Assembly (NCBI GenBank): GCA_947476955.1
Contig: CANJSS010000017.1
Span: forward strand, 1-33,160
Direction: 5' to 3'
Length of the DNA stretch: 33,160 nucleotides
From: Flavobacteriales bacterium
Lineage (GTDB): Bacteria; Bacteroidota; Bacteroidia; Flavobacteriales_D; Crocinitomicaceae
The position numbers were made by a program, and so were the translations under genes. The notes beneath the pieces were generated by a model. The model was not told the DNA's origin. It saw nothing but the letters and a program-made list of their open reading frames with translations, and did not search any database. Positions 1 to 8,092 of the stretch are shown here, piece after piece (the first letter of the stretch is position 1; each line of letters starts with the position of its first letter).

Positions 1-53
1 CAGCTAAAAAACCAGCAGCTAAAAAACCAGCAGCTAAAAAAGTAGCAAAGTAA
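1..53 (+). CDS. topA: C-terminal tail of a Lys/Ala-rich protein, probably DNA topoisomerase I (partial)
   Basis: The frame open at the left edge reads AKKPAAKKPAAKKVAK and stops at 51-53. The tail consists of AAKKP repeats encoded by near-identical 15-base units. Bacteroidota DNA topoisomerase I commonly ends in such a basic tail, and topA followed by an arginase-family gene and the gldK operon is an arrangement I recall from flavobacteria. No catalytic part is visible, so another basic-tailed protein, such as a histone-like protein, remains possible. A strong terminator follows directly, which confirms the end of a transcription unit. Confidence 0.5.
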   Translation, partial: AKKPAAKKPAAKKVAK

Positions 54-77: not shown

Positions 78-114
78 AAAAAAAAAAGGTTAGCTATTCG
101 TTAACCTTTTTTTT
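78..114 (+). terminator. Intrinsic terminator after the Lys/Ala-rich gene
   Basis: Stem GGTTA (88-92) pairs with TAACC (102-106). It is extended by an A tract (78-87) facing a T tract (107-114), so it could work in both directions. Confidence 0.75.
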
Positions 115-296: not shown

Positions 297-1451
297 ATGA
301 AGGATATTTCCATTTATTTCAAACCTGTTGATCAGGAAGAATCTTATTCAGACCAACAAGTTGGATTCAATATTAAGGTCAATAAGGAACATTTTCCTGA
401 AATTAGTTCTGGCGGAATTGCTTTGTTTTATGTACCCGAATTTAGAGGGGAAAAACTACAGAATCCAAATCGAAATGCAGCATCCTTCAGAAGTTCTTTT
501 TACCAATTGAACCTTGGTGTCGATTGGAAATTACCACTGTATGACTTAGGAGATATTTTACCTGGAAACGAATTGAATGACACCTATTTCGCAGTCAGTC
601 AGGTTGTTGCAGAATTGGTCAAACGGAAAGTCATTCCAGTGATTATTGGCGGAAGTCAAGACTTAACACTTGCAGTTTACAAAGGTTATGAGCAGTTGGA
701 ACAAATGGTAAACCTGTGTTCGATCGACTATAAATTAGACCTTGGAAACCCGGAAGATCCTATTTCTTCCGACGGATTTTTAAGCCATCTTTTACTTCAA
801 AGACCCTGCTATTTATTCAACCATTCAAACATCGGCTTGCAAGCGCCATTCGCATCTAAATCAGAATTGGATCTTTTTGATAAATTGTACTTCGATATGT
901 GCAGATTGGGAGAATTTAACGCGGATTTCAAGAAAGCAGAGCCTTTATTGCGTAATTCTGATATTCTAAGCATCGACTTTAAAAGTATTCGTGCCTCCGA
1001 ATTAAGACAGCCGGAGTACATTTCTCCAAATGGATTTTATGCCGATCAGATTTGCCAAATCGCTAAATATGCAGGAATCAGTGATAAACTAACAAGCTTT
1101 GGCGTGTTTAATTACGATCCTGAAAAAATAGCAGGCAGTGTATCCGCAATTCTTGCGCAAATAATCTGGTATTTTTTAGATGGCGTTTCCCAAAGGAAAG
1201 GTGATTTTCCAATAGGAAGTAAAAGAGATTACATGAAATTTACTGTTCATTTAGATGACTTTAAAGACGAAGTAATTTTCTATAAAAGCAACAAATCAGA
1301 TAGATGGTGGATGGAAGTGCCTTATCCACCGCAAAAAGGACTAAAATATGAACGACACCATTTGGTTCCCTGCGATATGAAAGACTACGAAAGGGCCATG
1401 AAAAATGAAATACCTGATTTATGGTGGAAAACCTATCAAAAACTAGGTTGA
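297..1451 (+). CDS. Arginase/formimidoylglutamase-fold protein with degenerate metal site
   Basis: A 384-residue ureohydrolase-superfamily protein, recognisable from three motif positions. The GGDHS motif is replaced by GGSQD (118-122), with Gln121 where the Mn-binding His should be. The DAHxD motif is DYKLD (144-148), with Lys146 for His. The SxDxD motif is SIDFK (225-229), with Lys229 for Asp. Three of the usual six metal ligands are therefore changed, so hydrolase activity is doubtful although the fold is probably kept. Annotation pipelines usually call such proteins formimidoylglutamase or arginase family. It lies just upstream of porP-gldK, separated by about 190 bases, and has its own promoter box. 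A structural or regulatory role is inference only. Confidence 0.7.
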   Translation: MKDISIYFKPVDQEESYSDQQVGFNIKVNKEHFPEISSGGIALFYVPEFRGEKLQNPNRNAASFRSSFYQLNLGVDWKLPLYDLGDILPGNELNDTYFAVSQVVAELVKRKVIPVIIGGSQDLTLAVYKGYEQLEQMVNLCSIDYKLDLGNPEDPISSDGFLSHLLLQRPCYLFNHSNIGLQAPFASKSELDLFDKLYFDMCRLGEFNADFKKAEPLLRNSDILSIDFKSIRASELRQPEYISPNGFYADQICQIAKYAGISDKLTSFGVFNYDPEKIAGSVSAILAQIIWYFLDGVSQRKGDFPIGSKRDYMKFTVHLDDFKDEVIFYKSNKSDRWWMEVPYPPQKGLKYERHHLVPCDMKDYERAMKNEIPDLWWKTYQKLG

Positions 1452-1527: not shown

Positions 1528-1638
1528 GAAGGAAATAAAAAAAATTTCATTTGTAAATAAAAATAATTATTTTAGTCGCCAATTGGAGAGGTTTTAAATC
1601 ACCTTTTTAATCATTAACCTCAAGTGAAAAGGAGTTGT

Positions 1639-2574
1639 ATGAAGAAAAAAATTATTCTCTTAACGTCATTTTTATCCCTTGCTACTGGCGCTATCATTGC
1701 GCAACAGGATAAATTACTTACCCATTTTATTTACGATAAAATGAGCATTAATCCAGGCGAAACAGGTTTGGACGATGGGATTTGTGCTACCACAATTTAC
1801 CGGAATCAATGGGATAAAATAAACGGTGCACCTAATTCCGCAGTACTAAATGTTGAAGCTAATGCTAAAAGATTTGGAGGATTTGGACTTTCGTTTTTTC
1901 ACGACGCAATCGGGTTTAACCGTCAAAATAATGTTCTATTGAATTATGCATATCCTGTAACTGTTGGTAATGCCGGAATTCTTGGTATTGGGTTAGGCGT
2001 TGGAATCGTTAATTTTGGAATGTCACCGGTTTGGGTTCCACCAACAACTGCAATTGATCCAACACTACCTGTTTCTTTTTCTGCAACAAATTTGGATTTA
2101 AATTTTGGTTTGTACTGGAAGGGTAAATCGGATTATTATGTTGGTCTTTCATCGACGCACTTAAATGAATCTTTGTTAAAACAAACAGTAGGTACAATTG
2201 ACCAAACTTACCAGACTGCAAGACACTACTACATCATGGGTGGAAAAAAATTCCTAGATGTTGCTGGTGGTGATATTGATGCTCAAATTTTAATGCGAAC
2301 AGATTTAGTAAAATTTTCTGCAGACATAAATGTTCGCTACATGTGGAGAGATATGGCTTATGGCGGTTTAACATATAGAACTATAGATGCGATAGGTTTA
2401 ATGATTGGAGGGAAACCGTTTCAAGGTATCGATATGACTGTAGGATATTCCTATGATGTTACAACGAATAAGCTTGCTAGTGTTTCAAGAGGTTCACACG
2501 AAATTCTTTTAAAATACTGTTATTACATACCATTACCGCCTATCACGAGGTCAAATCACCCAAGATGGTTGTAA
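1639..2574 (+). CDS. porP: PorP/SprF-family type IX secretion outer-membrane protein
   Basis: A 311-residue protein with a signal peptide (about residues 1-21, ending before QQDKLL) and the PorP/SprF opening, a conserved N-terminal block with HFIYDKMSINPGETG. The rest alternates short hydrophobic strands and Gly/aromatic turns, as in an outer-membrane beta-barrel. I chose the ATG at 1639 over an in-frame GTG at 1624 because it gives a clean Lys-rich signal peptide start. In Porphyromonas gingivalis, porP heads the porP-K-L-M-N operon, and the order here is the same. PorP-type proteins bind secretion or surface-anchoring components at the outer membrane; which SprF or PorP paralogue this is cannot be decided here. 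Confidence 0.85.
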   Translation: MKKKIILLTSFLSLATGAIIAQQDKLLTHFIYDKMSINPGETGLDDGICATTIYRNQWDKINGAPNSAVLNVEANAKRFGGFGLSFFHDAIGFNRQNNVLLNYAYPVTVGNAGILGIGLGVGIVNFGMSPVWVPPTTAIDPTLPVSFSATNLDLNFGLYWKGKSDYYVGLSSTHLNESLLKQTVGTIDQTYQTARHYYIMGGKKFLDVAGGDIDAQILMRTDLVKFSADINVRYMWRDMAYGGLTYRTIDAIGLMIGGKPFQGIDMTVGYSYDVTTNKLASVSRGSHEILLKYCYYIPLPPITRSNHPRWL

Positions 2575-2691: not shown

Positions 2692-4287
2692 ATGAAAAAA
2701 CTTTTGTTAATTGGTTTATTAGGTGTAGTGATTGCTTCTTGTAGCACAAGAACAGGACATCTAACAGGTACAATGGGAAGACCATTGTATAATCCTGAAA
2801 TCCCACTTGGGATGATATACGTACCTTCAGGTTCCTACCAGATGGGTGAGAACGACCAGGATGTTCCATTTTTGCACCAAACGCGTGCGAAAACAGTTTC
2901 TGTGCAGGCGTTCTACATGGATCAAACGGAAATTTCCAACAATGAATACCGCCAATTTGTGGAGTGGGTGCGCGATTCTATTGCCCGTGAAACTTTGTAT
3001 TTAAATCCATCGGATAGAACAAGTGGATACGATAATGAGGATTGGGCAGATGAAGATGCAGAGCGCTTTATCAACTATGAAGAAAGATATTTAGATGAAG
3101 GTGCAATGGAATACGTTGAATACGATCCATCTGACCGTGAATTGAATCGTTCTGTTTTCAACTTAAATTGGGATCGTCAATTGGACTATTCTGATCCTGC
3201 AGTTGTTCCAATTCTTGCGGATATGTACTACATACAGCCTGAAAGATTTTACAAAAGAAGAGAAATTGATGTGCGTAAGTTGATGTACCGTTATTTCTGG
3301 ATTGATTACCGCGAAGCAGCAAAACGTGGAAGAATTGATATCAAACAAAATGGTTTCGATGCATCAACTGGTGTGCAAGATCCAGGAAGTAAGGCAAATG
3401 AAGATCACCGATCACTTCAAACTCCTCCACATCCATTTACTGGAGATCCGCAAGGACAAGACAAGGATTTGGGTTATTTCAATAAGAAAGGACAAAACAA
3501 TGCAATTAGAGGACATGATAATCGAGGTCGTTTTGTAATCGATGAGGTTATTAATGTGTATCCGGATACGTTATGTTGGGTGAGAGATTTTACATACTCT
3601 TTCCATGATCCAATGACAAACATGTACTTTTGGCATCCAGCTTATGATAACTACCCAATTGTTGGTGTAACTTGGTTTCAAGCAAAAGCTTTCTCTGTAT
3701 GGAGAACACAATTGTTGAACAATTGGTTGGTTGCAATGGGTGATATTTTTGTAAATGATTTCCGTTTGCCATCAGAAGCAGAATGGGAAAGAGCTTCTAG
3801 AGGTGACTTGAACATGTCTCAATATCCTTGGGGCGGTCCATACATCAGAAATGAAGCTGGATGTTTCCTTGGTAACTTTAAACCAATGCGAGGACGTTAC
3901 TTTGAAGATGGTGGTTTCCATACAGTTAAAGTATTCTCTTACAATCCAAATGGATGGGGATTATATTGTATGGCAGGAAACGTCGCAGAATGGTGTGAAA
4001 CTGCATACGATGAATCTATGTACGAATTCTCTCATGATTTGAATACAGATTATAGATACGATGCAATGGACTGGGATCCACCTTCAATGAAAAGAAAGGT
4101 TCTTCGAGGAGGTTCTTGGAAAGATGTTGGATACTATTTACAAAATGCAACACGTACATTTGAATACCAAGATACTGCAAAGTCTTATATTGGATACCGA
4201 AATGTGATGACTCACCTGGGAAGAGGTGGTAAAGACTTCACAAGAGAAGGTGGCGAAGAAATTCGAAGCGATATTCAACTTCGTTAA
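2692..4287 (+). CDS. gldK: GldK, T9SS ring lipoprotein of the formylglycine-generating-enzyme fold
   Basis: A 531-residue lipoprotein with an N-terminal lipobox (VIASC, Cys17). The body is a sulfatase-modifying-factor (FGE/SUMF1-like) domain. The opening block IYVPSGSYQMGEND is followed by DQTEISNNEYRQF, then RLPSEAEWERASRG, PWGG, GLYCMAGNVAEWC and VLRGGSWKD near the end. GldK (PorK) forms the large periplasmic ring under the outer membrane with GldN. This copy looks longer than the roughly 465-490 residues I recall for characterised GldK/PorK, mostly through an acidic insert around residues 105-200. The gene lies 117 bases after porP and 54 bases before gldL. Confidence 0.95.
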   Translation: MKKLLLIGLLGVVIASCSTRTGHLTGTMGRPLYNPEIPLGMIYVPSGSYQMGENDQDVPFLHQTRAKTVSVQAFYMDQTEISNNEYRQFVEWVRDSIARETLYLNPSDRTSGYDNEDWADEDAERFINYEERYLDEGAMEYVEYDPSDRELNRSVFNLNWDRQLDYSDPAVVPILADMYYIQPERFYKRREIDVRKLMYRYFWIDYREAAKRGRIDIKQNGFDASTGVQDPGSKANEDHRSLQTPPHPFTGDPQGQDKDLGYFNKKGQNNAIRGHDNRGRFVIDEVINVYPDTLCWVRDFTYSFHDPMTNMYFWHPAYDNYPIVGVTWFQAKAFSVWRTQLLNNWLVAMGDIFVNDFRLPSEAEWERASRGDLNMSQYPWGGPYIRNEAGCFLGNFKPMRGRYFEDGGFHTVKVFSYNPNGWGLYCMAGNVAEWCETAYDESMYEFSHDLNTDYRYDAMDWDPPSMKRKVLRGGSWKDVGYYLQNATRTFEYQDTAKSYIGYRNVMTHLGRGGKDFTREGGEEIRSDIQLR

Positions 4288-4341: not shown

Positions 4342-5139
4342 ATGAAACCAGGAAGTAAAGGATGGAAGAAATTTATGGCGAAATTATACGGTTGGGGCGC
4401 AGCTGTAGTAATCGTTGGAGCGTTATTTAAAATTGAACACTTACCAGGAGCATCAATAATGCTCTCAATAGGTTTAGGGGTAGAAGCGTTTATATTCTTT
4501 ATGTCGGCATTTGAACCTCTCCACGAAGACCCAAACTGGGAGTTAGTTTATCCTGAATTAGCTGTTGGACATACAGATGATTTAGATCATGCTGCAATTT
4601 CAACAAAAGGTAAAGGCATCACAGATCAATTGGACAAAATGTTGGAGGAAGCTAAAATTGATAGTCAACTCTTAGAGCGTTTAGGTGATGGTATGAGAGC
4701 GCTTGGAGAAAACGCAGCCCAATTAAAAGGTGTTACTTCTGCTGCGGCAGCAACTGATTCTTATGTATCAAGTTTGCAAGCAGCATCTGATAAAGTCTCC
4801 TCATTGTCTGAAGCATATGAAAGAGCTTCGGTTTCTATTTCTGGAATGACTTCAAATGCACAAGAAGGTGAATCTTTCGGAGAGCAAATGCAAAAAGTTT
4901 CCAAGAACCTTGCTGCATTAAACAATGTGTATGAATTGCAATTGAAAGGTTCTGCTGCACACTTAGAGTCTACAGAGAAATTCCAATCTCAAGTAACAGA
5001 AATGATGTCTAATCTTGCGGCTTCAACGGAAGATACAAGAATGTACAAAGAGAATATGGCAATGTTATCCAAGAATTTAACTGACTTGAACAACGTTTAT
5101 GGAAATATGTTAAAAGCTATGACAATAACAAAAGCTTAA
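4342..5139 (+). CDS. gldL: GldL, inner-membrane proton-channel subunit of the T9SS motor
   Basis: A 265-residue protein with two transmembrane helices close together (about residues 15-32 and 36-57), then a long cytoplasmic region rich in heptad-like Ala/Leu/Ser that is probably coiled coil. Glu48 lies within the second helix (GLGVEAFIFF) and corresponds to the functionally essential membrane glutamate of Flavobacterium johnsoniae GldL. GldL forms a pentamer around a GldM dimer and couples proton flow to rotation. The gene is in the gldKLMN operon, 70 bases before gldM. Confidence 0.95.
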   Translation: MKPGSKGWKKFMAKLYGWGAAVVIVGALFKIEHLPGASIMLSIGLGVEAFIFFMSAFEPLHEDPNWELVYPELAVGHTDDLDHAAISTKGKGITDQLDKMLEEAKIDSQLLERLGDGMRALGENAAQLKGVTSAAAATDSYVSSLQAASDKVSSLSEAYERASVSISGMTSNAQEGESFGEQMQKVSKNLAALNNVYELQLKGSAAHLESTEKFQSQVTEMMSNLAASTEDTRMYKENMAMLSKNLTDLNNVYGNMLKAMTITKA

Positions 5140-5209: not shown

Positions 5210-6970
5210 ATGGCAGGAGGAAAAGAAACCCCTAGACAAAAGATGATCGGTATGATGTACTTAGTACTTACCGCACTTTTGGCTCTTAACGTATCAAAGT
5301 CTATTCTCGACGCATTCGTTGCGATAGAAGAAAACATCCAGATCTCGAATGAAAATGAATTCACCCGAGGTCAGGAAAAATATTTAGCATTGAAAGAAGT
5401 TTCTGAAGATAAATCTCAGAAAGATGTTCAAGTCAAAGCGCTAAAATTAATGAAGACCGTATCGCAGATTGATAAAATGACTGCACAGCGTATCAAATAT
5501 ATCGATGACTTAAAACTCGAAATATTAGGTGCTTGTGGGGAAGAAATCAAAATAATCGGGACGAAGAAAAGTATCATTTTTAAAGCGTACGATACCAAAG
5601 AACCATTGAAGCCAATTCGTATGAAATTGGAGCATGTTCAAGGTATGGATAAATACGATGAAGCAATGCACATAATTATCGGTGAGGACATTACTAAACC
5701 AACCGGTAAAGGTATTGAATTGTGGAAAACATACAATGGCTATAGAAAAGAACTTACGGAGTTAATTGCAAGTTCTGTAATCGTTGAGAAAGGGAAACCT
5801 GCATTTAAATTTAATGCACCTGAAATCAATAAGTTTGCCGACATGTTGGATTTATCCAAGCAAGTAGATAAAGCAATTGAAAGTTCAAACGTTGCACAAG
5901 ACGACAAGGAAGCGATCAAGAAAATTTATATCTCTTTGACGAAAAGTGAAAGAAGCAATGTACACGATGTTAAAGATGTTCATTGGATTGGAAAAACCTT
6001 TGACCATACTCCTGTTGTAGCAGCTTTGGCTTCTCTATCATCCATGCAAAAGGAAATCTTAACTGCTCGAGCAGATGCTGTTTCTATAATTAGAGCGCGT
6101 GTTGGTGGAGGAGAGTATTCTTTCAACAAAATTATGGCACTTGCATACGGTCCTGAATTAGCTAATTCAGGAGATGAAGTTAAAATTGAAGTATTGATGG
6201 CTGCTTTCGATACCGATAAGCAACCTGAGGTGACTTATGCAGGTAAAGTCGTAACGGATGTTAAAGAAGGTAAAGGTTTTATTACTACAAAGGCTTCAGG
6301 TGGAAATGAAATGGTCTTAAAAGGTGAAATCACCATTAAGAACAAGTCTGGAATGCCAAAAACAATGCCTTGGACAAAAACAATCAAAATCATGAAGCCG
6401 CAAGGAAATGCTTCTCTTCCTGAGATGAATGTTTTGTACCGAGATTATGATAATAAGTTATTAGCTGTAGCATCTGGTTACGAAAAAACAATTGTTACAA
6501 TATCGAACGGTGTCTCATTAAAACCAGGGAGCTACTCTATTGATGGAAAACAGATAAATGGACACATTGTGCGTCCCTCTGGAGCTTCAAAAACATGTGA
6601 AGTGTTTGTGTCAGGTCAAAATACATTGACAAAGAAAACGGTTAAATTGGGAAGTTTTCCTTTTAGAATCAAGAATTTACCGCCTCCAACATGTTTCTTT
6701 GGAAAAGCTTCAAATGGAGGTTCTGCTTTGAAATCAGATGTTGTACTTTCAGCTCGTTACGAAGATTCTCCATTAAATGCAGTATTTACTGTTGTAAGTT
6801 GGGAATTAGAATTTATGGGTAGAAGTGCATCTGGTAATGGAAATATTATTAATGCTCAAGCAGCTTCCTTGTTAAAACAAGCCAGACCAAATGCAACAGC
6901 TAGTTTTCTAGTTAAGTATAAAGGTCCAGACGGCAAGTTGAAACAAAGTGCTGTTGTTGTTAAACTTTAA
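5210..6970 (+). CDS. gldM: GldM, T9SS motor shaft protein
   Basis: A 586-residue protein that begins MAGGKETPRQKMIGMMYLVL and has one N-terminal transmembrane helix (about residues 12-29). The helix runs into the conserved SKSILDAFVAIEENI segment. A long periplasmic region follows, with the repeated Ig-like domains expected of GldM/PorM, which reach across the periplasm to the GldK/GldN ring. It is somewhat longer than F. johnsoniae GldM (about 510 residues as I recall). The stop is 10 bases before the gldN start, so the two are surely co-transcribed. Confidence 0.95.
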   Translation: MAGGKETPRQKMIGMMYLVLTALLALNVSKSILDAFVAIEENIQISNENEFTRGQEKYLALKEVSEDKSQKDVQVKALKLMKTVSQIDKMTAQRIKYIDDLKLEILGACGEEIKIIGTKKSIIFKAYDTKEPLKPIRMKLEHVQGMDKYDEAMHIIIGEDITKPTGKGIELWKTYNGYRKELTELIASSVIVEKGKPAFKFNAPEINKFADMLDLSKQVDKAIESSNVAQDDKEAIKKIYISLTKSERSNVHDVKDVHWIGKTFDHTPVVAALASLSSMQKEILTARADAVSIIRARVGGGEYSFNKIMALAYGPELANSGDEVKIEVLMAAFDTDKQPEVTYAGKVVTDVKEGKGFITTKASGGNEMVLKGEITIKNKSGMPKTMPWTKTIKIMKPQGNASLPEMNVLYRDYDNKLLAVASGYEKTIVTISNGVSLKPGSYSIDGKQINGHIVRPSGASKTCEVFVSGQNTLTKKTVKLGSFPFRIKNLPPPTCFFGKASNGGSALKSDVVLSARYEDSPLNAVFTVVSWELEFMGRSASGNGNIINAQAASLLKQARPNATASFLVKYKGPDGKLKQSAVVVKL

Positions 6971-6980
6971 TTTTTTTAAT

Positions 6981-8048
6981 ATGAAAATGATTCATTTTTT
7001 ATGTACACTATGCTTTTGTTTAGGTACATTATCTTTTCAGGCTTGGTCTCAACCGGAAGTAACTGGTGGTCCATTGAACGTACCAACTAATGGTATAATT
7101 GATGGAGTGTACATGAAAGAAATCATTCCAACAAAGAAATTAATTGAATACGAGCACGTGCGGGAAGCTGATTATGTTTGGGGCAAACGTGTTTACCAAC
7201 GAATTGATTTGAGAGAAAGAATTAACCATCCAATTTACTTTCCTTTTGATGAGATTAGAGGAGAAAATGAATGGGTGCGGAATGCATCTCGTTGGTCACT
7301 TTGGACAATCATCCGGAATTCAATTGTTTACGGAGATTTAACAGTGTTTGATAATGAAAATCCAAATGCTTTAGGAGTCTATGATGGAGATCAATTTAAA
7401 TATCCAATTACTTCAGGTATGATGGGTGGAAATTACCAGAGCGATTCGTTAATGAAAAAAGACATTAATCGTTTGTTAGGTACATTAGCTCCACCAAAAA
7501 CGGATGCACAAGGAAACTTCCTTGCCCTAACGAGTGTTCTTGATCCTGAATTGGATTCTTTGGATCTTGCTGGCAATCCAGTTTATCCTGAAAGAGAAAT
7601 GATTTGGATAACATCGCAAGATATCGTAGCATATTATTTGAAAGAAGATTGGTTCTTTGACAAGGAACGTTCTGTTTTGGATTGTAGAATATTAGGTATT
7701 GCACCTGTAGTTTATTTTGACTCAAAAGGTAAACAAGTAATCACTGATTCTGAAACTGGAGCTATCTCGGATGCAATTCAATCTGAAAGAGCATTGTTTT
7801 GGTTGTATTTCCCACACTTGCGTTATACACTAAATAACTATTTCGTATACAACGATGCAAATGATGCGCAATGGATGAGTTTTGATGATTTATTCTGGAA
7901 AAGAAGATTTAATAGTACAATGTACAAAGAAAGTAATACCTACGATCGTAAAATTGAAAGCTACCGAACTGGCGCAGAGGCCTTGATGGAAGCAGATAGA
8001 ATTAAAGAGGAAATCAGAACTATCGAACACGATGTTTGGAGTTTCTAA
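6981..8048 (+). CDS. gldN: GldN, periplasmic ring partner of GldK
   Basis: A 355-residue exported protein. I set the start at ATG 6981 (MKMIHFLCTLCFCLGTLSFQ), which gives a normal signal peptide; an upstream in-frame start at 6948 would lie inside gldM and spoil it. The mature part carries family features such as the segment EREMIWITSQDIVAYYLKEDW, in two parts around residues 205-225, and the WLYFPHLRYTLNNYFVYN region near residue 275. GldN (PorN) forms the periplasmic ring with GldK. It is the last gene of the operon and is followed by a terminator. Confidence 0.95.
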   Translation: MKMIHFLCTLCFCLGTLSFQAWSQPEVTGGPLNVPTNGIIDGVYMKEIIPTKKLIEYEHVREADYVWGKRVYQRIDLRERINHPIYFPFDEIRGENEWVRNASRWSLWTIIRNSIVYGDLTVFDNENPNALGVYDGDQFKYPITSGMMGGNYQSDSLMKKDINRLLGTLAPPKTDAQGNFLALTSVLDPELDSLDLAGNPVYPEREMIWITSQDIVAYYLKEDWFFDKERSVLDCRILGIAPVVYFDSKGKQVITDSETGAISDAIQSERALFWLYFPHLRYTLNNYFVYNDANDAQWMSFDDLFWKRRFNSTMYKESNTYDRKIESYRTGAEALMEADRIKEEIRTIEHDVWSF

Positions 8049-8064
8049 TTACTTTTAAAAATTG

Positions 8065-8092
8065 AAAGCCTCAGGAAACTGGGGCTTTTTTT
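8065..8092 (+). terminator. Terminator of the porP-gldKLMN operon
   Basis: A nine-pair stem (8065-8073 with 8080-8088, including one T-G pair), loop GGAAAC, then a T run to 8092. It starts 17 bases after the gldN stop. Confidence 0.8.

Follow-up and report, generated by a model that had tools for sequence, protein, structure and literature searches.

An arginase-fold protein family lacking the complete ureohydrolase metal site and often encoded beside type IX secretion genes

The window, a stretch of 33,160 nucleotides from a Flavobacteriales bacterium, raises the question of why an arginase-fold protein is encoded next to the porP-gldKLMN genes of the type IX secretion system (T9SS), and whether this protein is still an enzyme. 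The first-pass annotation had hinted at a recruited pseudoenzyme, encoded beside the T9SS genes. The open reading frame (positions 297–1451, forward strand, 384 residues) was borne out as described and its neighbourhood was confirmed, with the order topA tail, hairpin, gene, porP, gldK, gldL, gldM and gldN (Table 1). The contig starts inside the basic tail of topA. In locus L006, which allowed the recognition of this tail, the family protein is 94% identical to the pseudo-ureohydrolase of the window. The hairpin located between topA and the gene is possibly a terminator. It is missing from the list of the terminator scan, whose criteria require a higher number of G-C pairs, and the scan listed none between the gene and porP. 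Six terminator-like and 25 promoter-like sites were counted compared to 5.1 and 29.1 in shuffled sequences, so that such sites are weak evidence. The GldK protein was 531 residues long for a profile of 408 positions, corresponding to approximately 100 extra residues.

Table 1. Location of the features discussed in the text, in window coordinates.
Feature	Position	Strand	Basis or description
Last topA codons (AKKPAAKKPAAKKVAK-stop)	1..51	+	resembles the end of TopA that precedes the family gene in L006
AU-rich hairpin, -15.4 kcal/mol	80..114	+	in the topA/gene gap; 3' arm ends in eight U
Pseudo-ureohydrolase gene	297..1451	+	384 residues, with the arginase-fold domain at 1-301 and the C-terminal module at 302-384
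Motif 1 GGSQD, aa 118-122	648..662	+	Q121; His in arginases, Asn in two aligned formiminoglutamases
Motif 2 DYKLD, aa 144-148	726..740	+	D144 and D148 kept; K146 replaces the metal-B His
Motif 3 SIDFK, aa 225-229	969..983	+	D227 kept; K229 replaces the metal-B Asp
Family-specific C-terminal module, aa 302-384	1200..1448	+	near-invariant F328, R336-W337-W338, P358-C359, Y364, P373, W376
porP/sprF family gene	1624..2574	+	Pfam, NCBIfam
gldK/porK	2692..4287	+	NCBIfam
gldL/porL	4342..5139	+	Pfam, NCBIfam
gldM/porM	5210..6970	+	Pfam, NCBIfam
gldN/porN	6948..8048	+	Pfam, NCBIfam
Terminator-like hairpin after gldN	8064..8089	+	strongest of the six in the scan

The arginase fold was confirmed by the structure model (pLDDT 94.2), by its VIA matches and by the Pfam Arginase score (PF00491), which at 27.6 bits was just above the cut-off of 22. 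The product is a member of the ureohydrolase (arginase) superfamily. The top VIA matches of the model were the T. cruzi formiminoglutamase (4mxr), with a Z of 33.0 and an rmsd of 2.4 across 277 residues, and B. subtilis HutG (3m1r), with a Z of 31.4. Ureohydrolase structures covered approximately residues 12–305 of the model, the formiminoglutamases residues 18–302. The NCBIfam hutG model gave 42.9 bits, far under its cut-off of 229.15. This cut-off was also missed by the HutG-like protein of the window's genome (78.2 bits), which makes the hutG score alone a weak criterion. The N-terminus, MKDISIYFKPV, read by eye, showed no evident signal peptide, and for this reason the protein is probably cytoplasmic. 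GldL has a cytoplasmic part, and the pseudo-ureohydrolase would probably share this compartment with both GldL and TopA.

The replaced ligands were found where the first-pass annotation had placed them, with Q121, K146 and K229 at three of the six ligand positions and D144, D148 and D227 remaining. When the family profile was aligned to 3m1r and 4mxr (alignment A2, built from 86 members after L120, L121, L123 and L063 had been removed from the 90 with less than 80% identity), GGSQ lay opposite GGDN and GGGN, DYKLD opposite DAHHD and DSHLD, and SIDFK opposite SVDMD and SFDVD. It had been envisaged that the true ligands might lie intact elsewhere. No further copy of GG-x-H/N, D-x-H-x-D or S/T-x-D-x-D was present anywhere in the protein, and the ligand assignment therefore holds; intact ligands hidden by misalignment were rejected, as the motif scan and the alignment to the two structures agree. 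We take positions 121, 144, 148 and 227 to be the metal-A set and positions 146 and 229 to be the ligands special to metal B, as in arginase structures. With these roles, the loss concerns one whole metal site (metal B), not a random half of the ligands, and one bound metal ion is possible because the metal-A set is mostly intact in the family. The His-to-Gln change at position 121 is milder than it looks: both aligned formiminoglutamases have Asn there (N114 in the T. cruzi enzyme, solved with Mn according to the PDB titles), so that Q121 alone is no argument against a metal.

The site was then considered across 125 distinct family members from the fetched loci, identical and near-identical copies being dropped. 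The six-ligand binuclear site, of which the window protein has three ligands, was complete in none of them: one member showed five canonical ligands, 16 four, 87 three, eight two, ten one and three none. GG-x-H together with D-x-H-x-D was found in none of the 125, anywhere in the protein. H146 was present in five members and D229 in five, both together in none. The metal-A set (Q, H or N at 121 plus the three Asp) was intact in 102 members, with Gln in 86, His in 12 and Asn in four. The three Asp were all present in 103; at least one was lost in 22 members and all three in five (L108, L111, L112, L120 and L121). In the ranking of the 384 columns by entropy, the three Asp columns stood at 36, 42 and 49, and columns 146 and 229 at 280 and 278. 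The first-pass annotation had argued that the Lys pair speaks against a bound Mn pair. Its outcome stands, as no Mn pair is expected, but the argument carries less weight than was given to it, positions 146 and 229 being variable across the family (Lys or Arg in 71 of the 125 members at 146 and in 11 at 229). In the alignment of orthologues, which it had suggested in order to see whether the changed ligands are conserved, K146 and K229 themselves were not conserved. The idea that the protein might be explained by a Lys conserved at 146 and 229 alike was rejected on this variability.

Individual members departed from the common pattern in both directions. L033 (H, D, K, D, D, D) was canonical at five of the six ligand positions, K146 being the sole departure. 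L120 and L121, from family f16, were among the most decayed, with the three Asp lost and the C-terminal RWW changed into LWY; in both, topA was located within a few genes and no T9SS genes were present in the 20 kb read.

The family was detected in 279 of the 296 sampled genomes of the class, which we infer to be the Bacteroidia. The profile search at E<=1e-25 found it in 278 genomes; the remaining 18 comprised one with a divergent member and 17 with none, the weak match of genome G043 being its canonical arginase-family gene. A search with one protein matched 56 of 60 relatives, the match in G043 being another arginase-family gene and that in G020 a 50-residue fragment. No match to member L137 was found in plasmid records. 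Within the window's genus the dN/dS ratio was 0.018–0.065 for the nine of ten pairs with finite dS (one pair was saturated), the values being rough for the four of these nine in which dS exceeded 1. The gene is under strong purifying selection in this genus. A decaying pseudogene was rejected by the open frame and by these ratios. A quick tree with 53 rows and several long branches separated 38 of the 125 members from 15 other arginase-family proteins of the same order at a branch with an SH-aLRT of 99. The genome of the window carries three other arginase-family genes, arginase-like (210 bits), agmatinase-like (162.7 bits) and HutG-like, each under its own curated cut-off; the agmatinase-like and HutG-like proteins show the GG-x-H and D-x-H-x-D motifs. 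As had been claimed, the protein is not a standard arginase or formimidoylglutamase: no family member has all the ligands, and genes that look like arginase, agmatinase and HutG exist in the same genome. The superfamily fold, the replaced metal ligands and the maintenance by selection, which would be expected of a pseudoenzyme, were all found. The pseudoenzyme part of the earlier description is supported by ligands that are replaced, in a gene conserved and selected; recruitment to the T9SS would be a tentative reading.

Beyond the arginase-fold domain, the family possesses a C-terminal module. Among the 50 PDB matches listed, the aligned region ended at or before model residue 305. The module was modelled as strands plus two helices, and its prediction alone from one sequence reached a modest pLDDT of 73.2. 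Searched alone, it gave no Foldseek match at E<=0.001 and no clear structural match with VIA (best Z 4.2); these missing matches are no evidence for a new fold. Its mean column entropy was 2.06 versus 2.15 for the rest of the protein, indicating that both parts are about equally conserved. Two cysteines were near-invariant, C253 in the arginase domain (117 of 125 members) and C359 in the module (124 of 125).

Conservation of gene order was assessed in two collections. In the 113 genomes for which both positions were among the matches listed, a sample in which weak members are under-represented, gldL was located within 8 kb of the family gene in 83 genomes, across 25 families, and was unlinked, by distance only, in 30. 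The second collection consisted of the best 80 of 578 loci; it leans to the window's relatives and overlaps the genomes searched earlier. There, 50 of the 77 loci with at least 1 kb readable had topA as the immediate upstream neighbour of the gene, and porP or gldK was downstream in 48 of the 61 loci with at least 3 kb readable. The topA-to-gene gap had a median of 55 nt and was 25 nt or less in 18 of 51 loci; the gap between the gene and porP or gldK had a median of 140 nt (n=57, two negative values being an artefact of start choice). Both topA and gldK were beside the gene on contigs of Fluviicola, Crocinitomix algicola, Tenacibaculum and Flavobacterium, and neither was on one Pedobacter contig. 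Among 40 wide loci, a selection that favoured divergent members, T9SS genes were downstream on the same strand in 13 (in at least two of the 40, L142 and L157, the contig ends within 3 kb downstream); in L123, gldK and porP were close by on the other strand. Of 13 loci lacking T9SS genes downstream, four (L220, L223, L232 and L265) kept topA. Conversely, the T9SS link existed without topA in some loci (e.g., L196, L200 and L203). In eight of the 40 wide loci, all without a T9SS link (L129, L131, L132, L133, L134, L135, L143 and L147), a divergent gene for an NAD-dependent epimerase/dehydratase (a short-chain dehydrogenase/epimerase, HpnA-like, below cut-off) was adjacent. The recurrent neighbours that were identified, each seen in at least three loci, were not ureohydrolases.

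A GldL match was obtained in 289 of the 296 genomes. The gene and gldL were both present in 277 genomes, gldL only in 12, the gene only in two, and neither in five. The gene was missing in five of the seven genomes without a GldL match compared to 12 of the 289 with one, a co-loss with a Fisher p of 7e-6 when kinship is ignored; three of the five double absences came from one family (f22), and another of the five genomes, G496, has a partial GldN. The 12 gldL-only genomes belonged to f21, f23, f22 (two genomes) and, as single genomes, to f8, f83, f118 and f126, and GldN was present in all of them. The two genomes with the gene only showed no GldL or GldN match: G494 (95% complete) and G404 (locus L050, 99% complete), in which the conserved C-terminal residues are kept. 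G404 is a natural test of T9SS independence. The T9SS link is real as gene order, but from these counts the T9SS would not require the gene, nor would the gene be restricted to genomes with a T9SS. The earlier hint of a recruitment to this system keeps the support of gene order in 83 of 113 genomes, against which stand the nearer position of topA, the 12 gldL-only genomes and G404. In the open-access literature searched, the family protein is not named as a T9SS component.

Because one of the two metal sites is lost while the gene is widely kept, often beside T9SS genes, the protein probably has a non-enzymatic job. We propose, with a probability of about 0.5, that it is most likely a non-catalytic pseudo-ureohydrolase, which may help to assemble or regulate machinery encoded at the same locus. 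From the ligand residues, ureohydrolase activity is very probably absent: a branch that has lost the metal-B site and kept most of the metal-A acidic set would not hydrolyse guanidino or formimino compounds. The Lys or Arg at position 146 may pair with D144 and D227 and in this way make up for the lost metal B; the fold would be held by the Asp residues of site A, whether or not one metal ion is bound. Less surely, the protein would be a soluble cytoplasmic protein that binds a partner by means of its C-terminal module and the former pocket. The assembly or regulation of machinery from the same locus would be its most likely job, and the GldL/M motor would be the best single candidate partner. 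A T9SS-related role is tentative, and the likelihoods given to T9SS, topA and another enzyme overlap in part. It is conceivable, with odds well short of even, that the type IX secretion and gliding motor has in this protein a cytoplasmic component or regulator not described before, derived from a ureohydrolase and already possessed by the ancestor of the class. Just as tentatively, such a part might have arisen by the removal of one metal site and the addition of a tryptophan-rich C-terminal module, and might have been overlooked through its resemblance to formimidoylglutamase.

The gene order might also be read from its other side. The protein could serve topA or general housekeeping, its closeness to the T9SS genes being a leftover of the ancestral gene order of the class. 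The frequent position of topA directly upstream, with short gaps in 18 of 51 loci, its retention at the four loci devoid of T9SS genes and the presence of the gene in the T9SS-negative G404 are consistent with this reading, but in the window the hairpin stands between topA and the gene, with none listed between the gene and porP, and in L196, L200 and L203 the gene stays linked to T9SS genes although topA is absent. We consider it doubtful. A different enzyme is unlikely. In this case a single A-site metal, or the near-invariant Arg, Cys and Trp of the pocket and the C-terminal module, would catalyse another reaction. The metal-A set kept in 102 of the 125 members, in which residue 121 is Gln, His or Asn, would allow for it, Asn at this position being compatible with the Mn-loaded T. 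cruzi formiminoglutamase, and the near-invariant polar residues (R203, E215, R219, C253, R300, R336 and C359) point in the same direction. We assume that position 272 is the equivalent of the arginase catalytic Glu. It is Glu in 46 of the 125 members, which would suit an altered one-metal enzyme, but Asn in 56, so that it is not conserved; in addition, 22 members are short of one or more of the three Asp and five have none of them, and we know of no one-metal hydrolase of the arginase fold. As to a link with histidine degradation, urocanase was detected in 253 of the 296 genomes, including that of the window, and was absent from 43; as so many genomes have it, its presence alone does not separate the readings. 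That the gene encodes a working formimidoylglutamase or arginase, the name that automated annotation might give it from its weak family scores (27.6 bits for Arginase, 42.9 for hutG) and from formiminoglutamases being the nearest fold, is highly improbable, being contradicted by the alignment (none of 125 members with all ligands), by the separate arginase-, agmatinase- and HutG-like genes of the same genome and by the gene being kept in 17 of the 20 urocanase-less genomes among the matches listed.

The non-catalytic pseudo-ureohydrolase that we favour is a warning to metabolic annotation, since it can pass for a formiminoglutamase. In the excerpt available from a paper on Flavobacteriaceae genomes (PMC11278836), histidine degradation was undetected "except for formiminoglutamase", and this exception may be the protein of the present family. 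If the link to secretion is true, a class-wide (279 of 296 genomes) and strongly selected gene often located beside the rotary secretion motor would possibly encode a missed part of this motor. Searches of the open-access literature found neither the family itself nor an arginase-like protein tied to the T9SS, and found no text combining formimidoylglutamase with gldK or type IX secretion with pseudoenzyme. Where type IX secretion and arginase were mentioned together, the arginase belonged to the accessory genes carried by mobile elements; where arginase turned up in connection with porP or gldK, it was the name of a biochemical test. Mentions of gldK, topA and gldL together were confined to a reference list, and arginase is not mentioned in the excerpt of PMC12635249.

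Among known systems, HutG (3m1r, 4mxr) shares with the family the fold, the order of the three motifs and a non-His residue at position 121; the family differs in being devoid of the metal-B His and Asp, in its added module 302–384 and in the lack of conservation of the catalytic Glu. The arginase-like protein of T. brucei (4rhm, 4rhq) is likewise a ureohydrolase fold with a lost binuclear site. Where the window protein has K146 it carries Arg151, likewise a basic residue (the title of 4rhm is that of a mutant including R151H), and we infer that the basic residue in both would be a convergence fitting the replacement of a metal by a charge. Its Asp ligands were lost too (Ser149, Ser153 and Ser226, implied by the title of 4rhm), whereas here the three Asp are kept in 103 of the 125 members, and unlike the T. 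brucei protein the present family spans a bacterial class. MetCb/MfmB (8ryi, 8snf, 8x3g) is described in the excerpt of PMC11271267 as a metal-free pseudoenzyme subunit of metformin hydrolase. It is, as the present protein may be, a metal-free partner protein of the arginase family; it is encoded beside its active partner MetCa, whereas the identified recurrent neighbours of the family gene are not ureohydrolases. The same excerpt cites eukaryotic and prokaryotic pseudoenzymes of the superfamily, the functions of the earlier cases being elusive. With the T9SS core operon porP-gldKLMN the family gene shares its location, gldL being within 8 kb in 25 families, and the 13 linked loci that were read fully agree in strand; unlike the core genes, it is missing from 12 genomes that have gldL. 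Pseudoenzymes of the ureohydrolase superfamily are already known, and the family described here would add to them.
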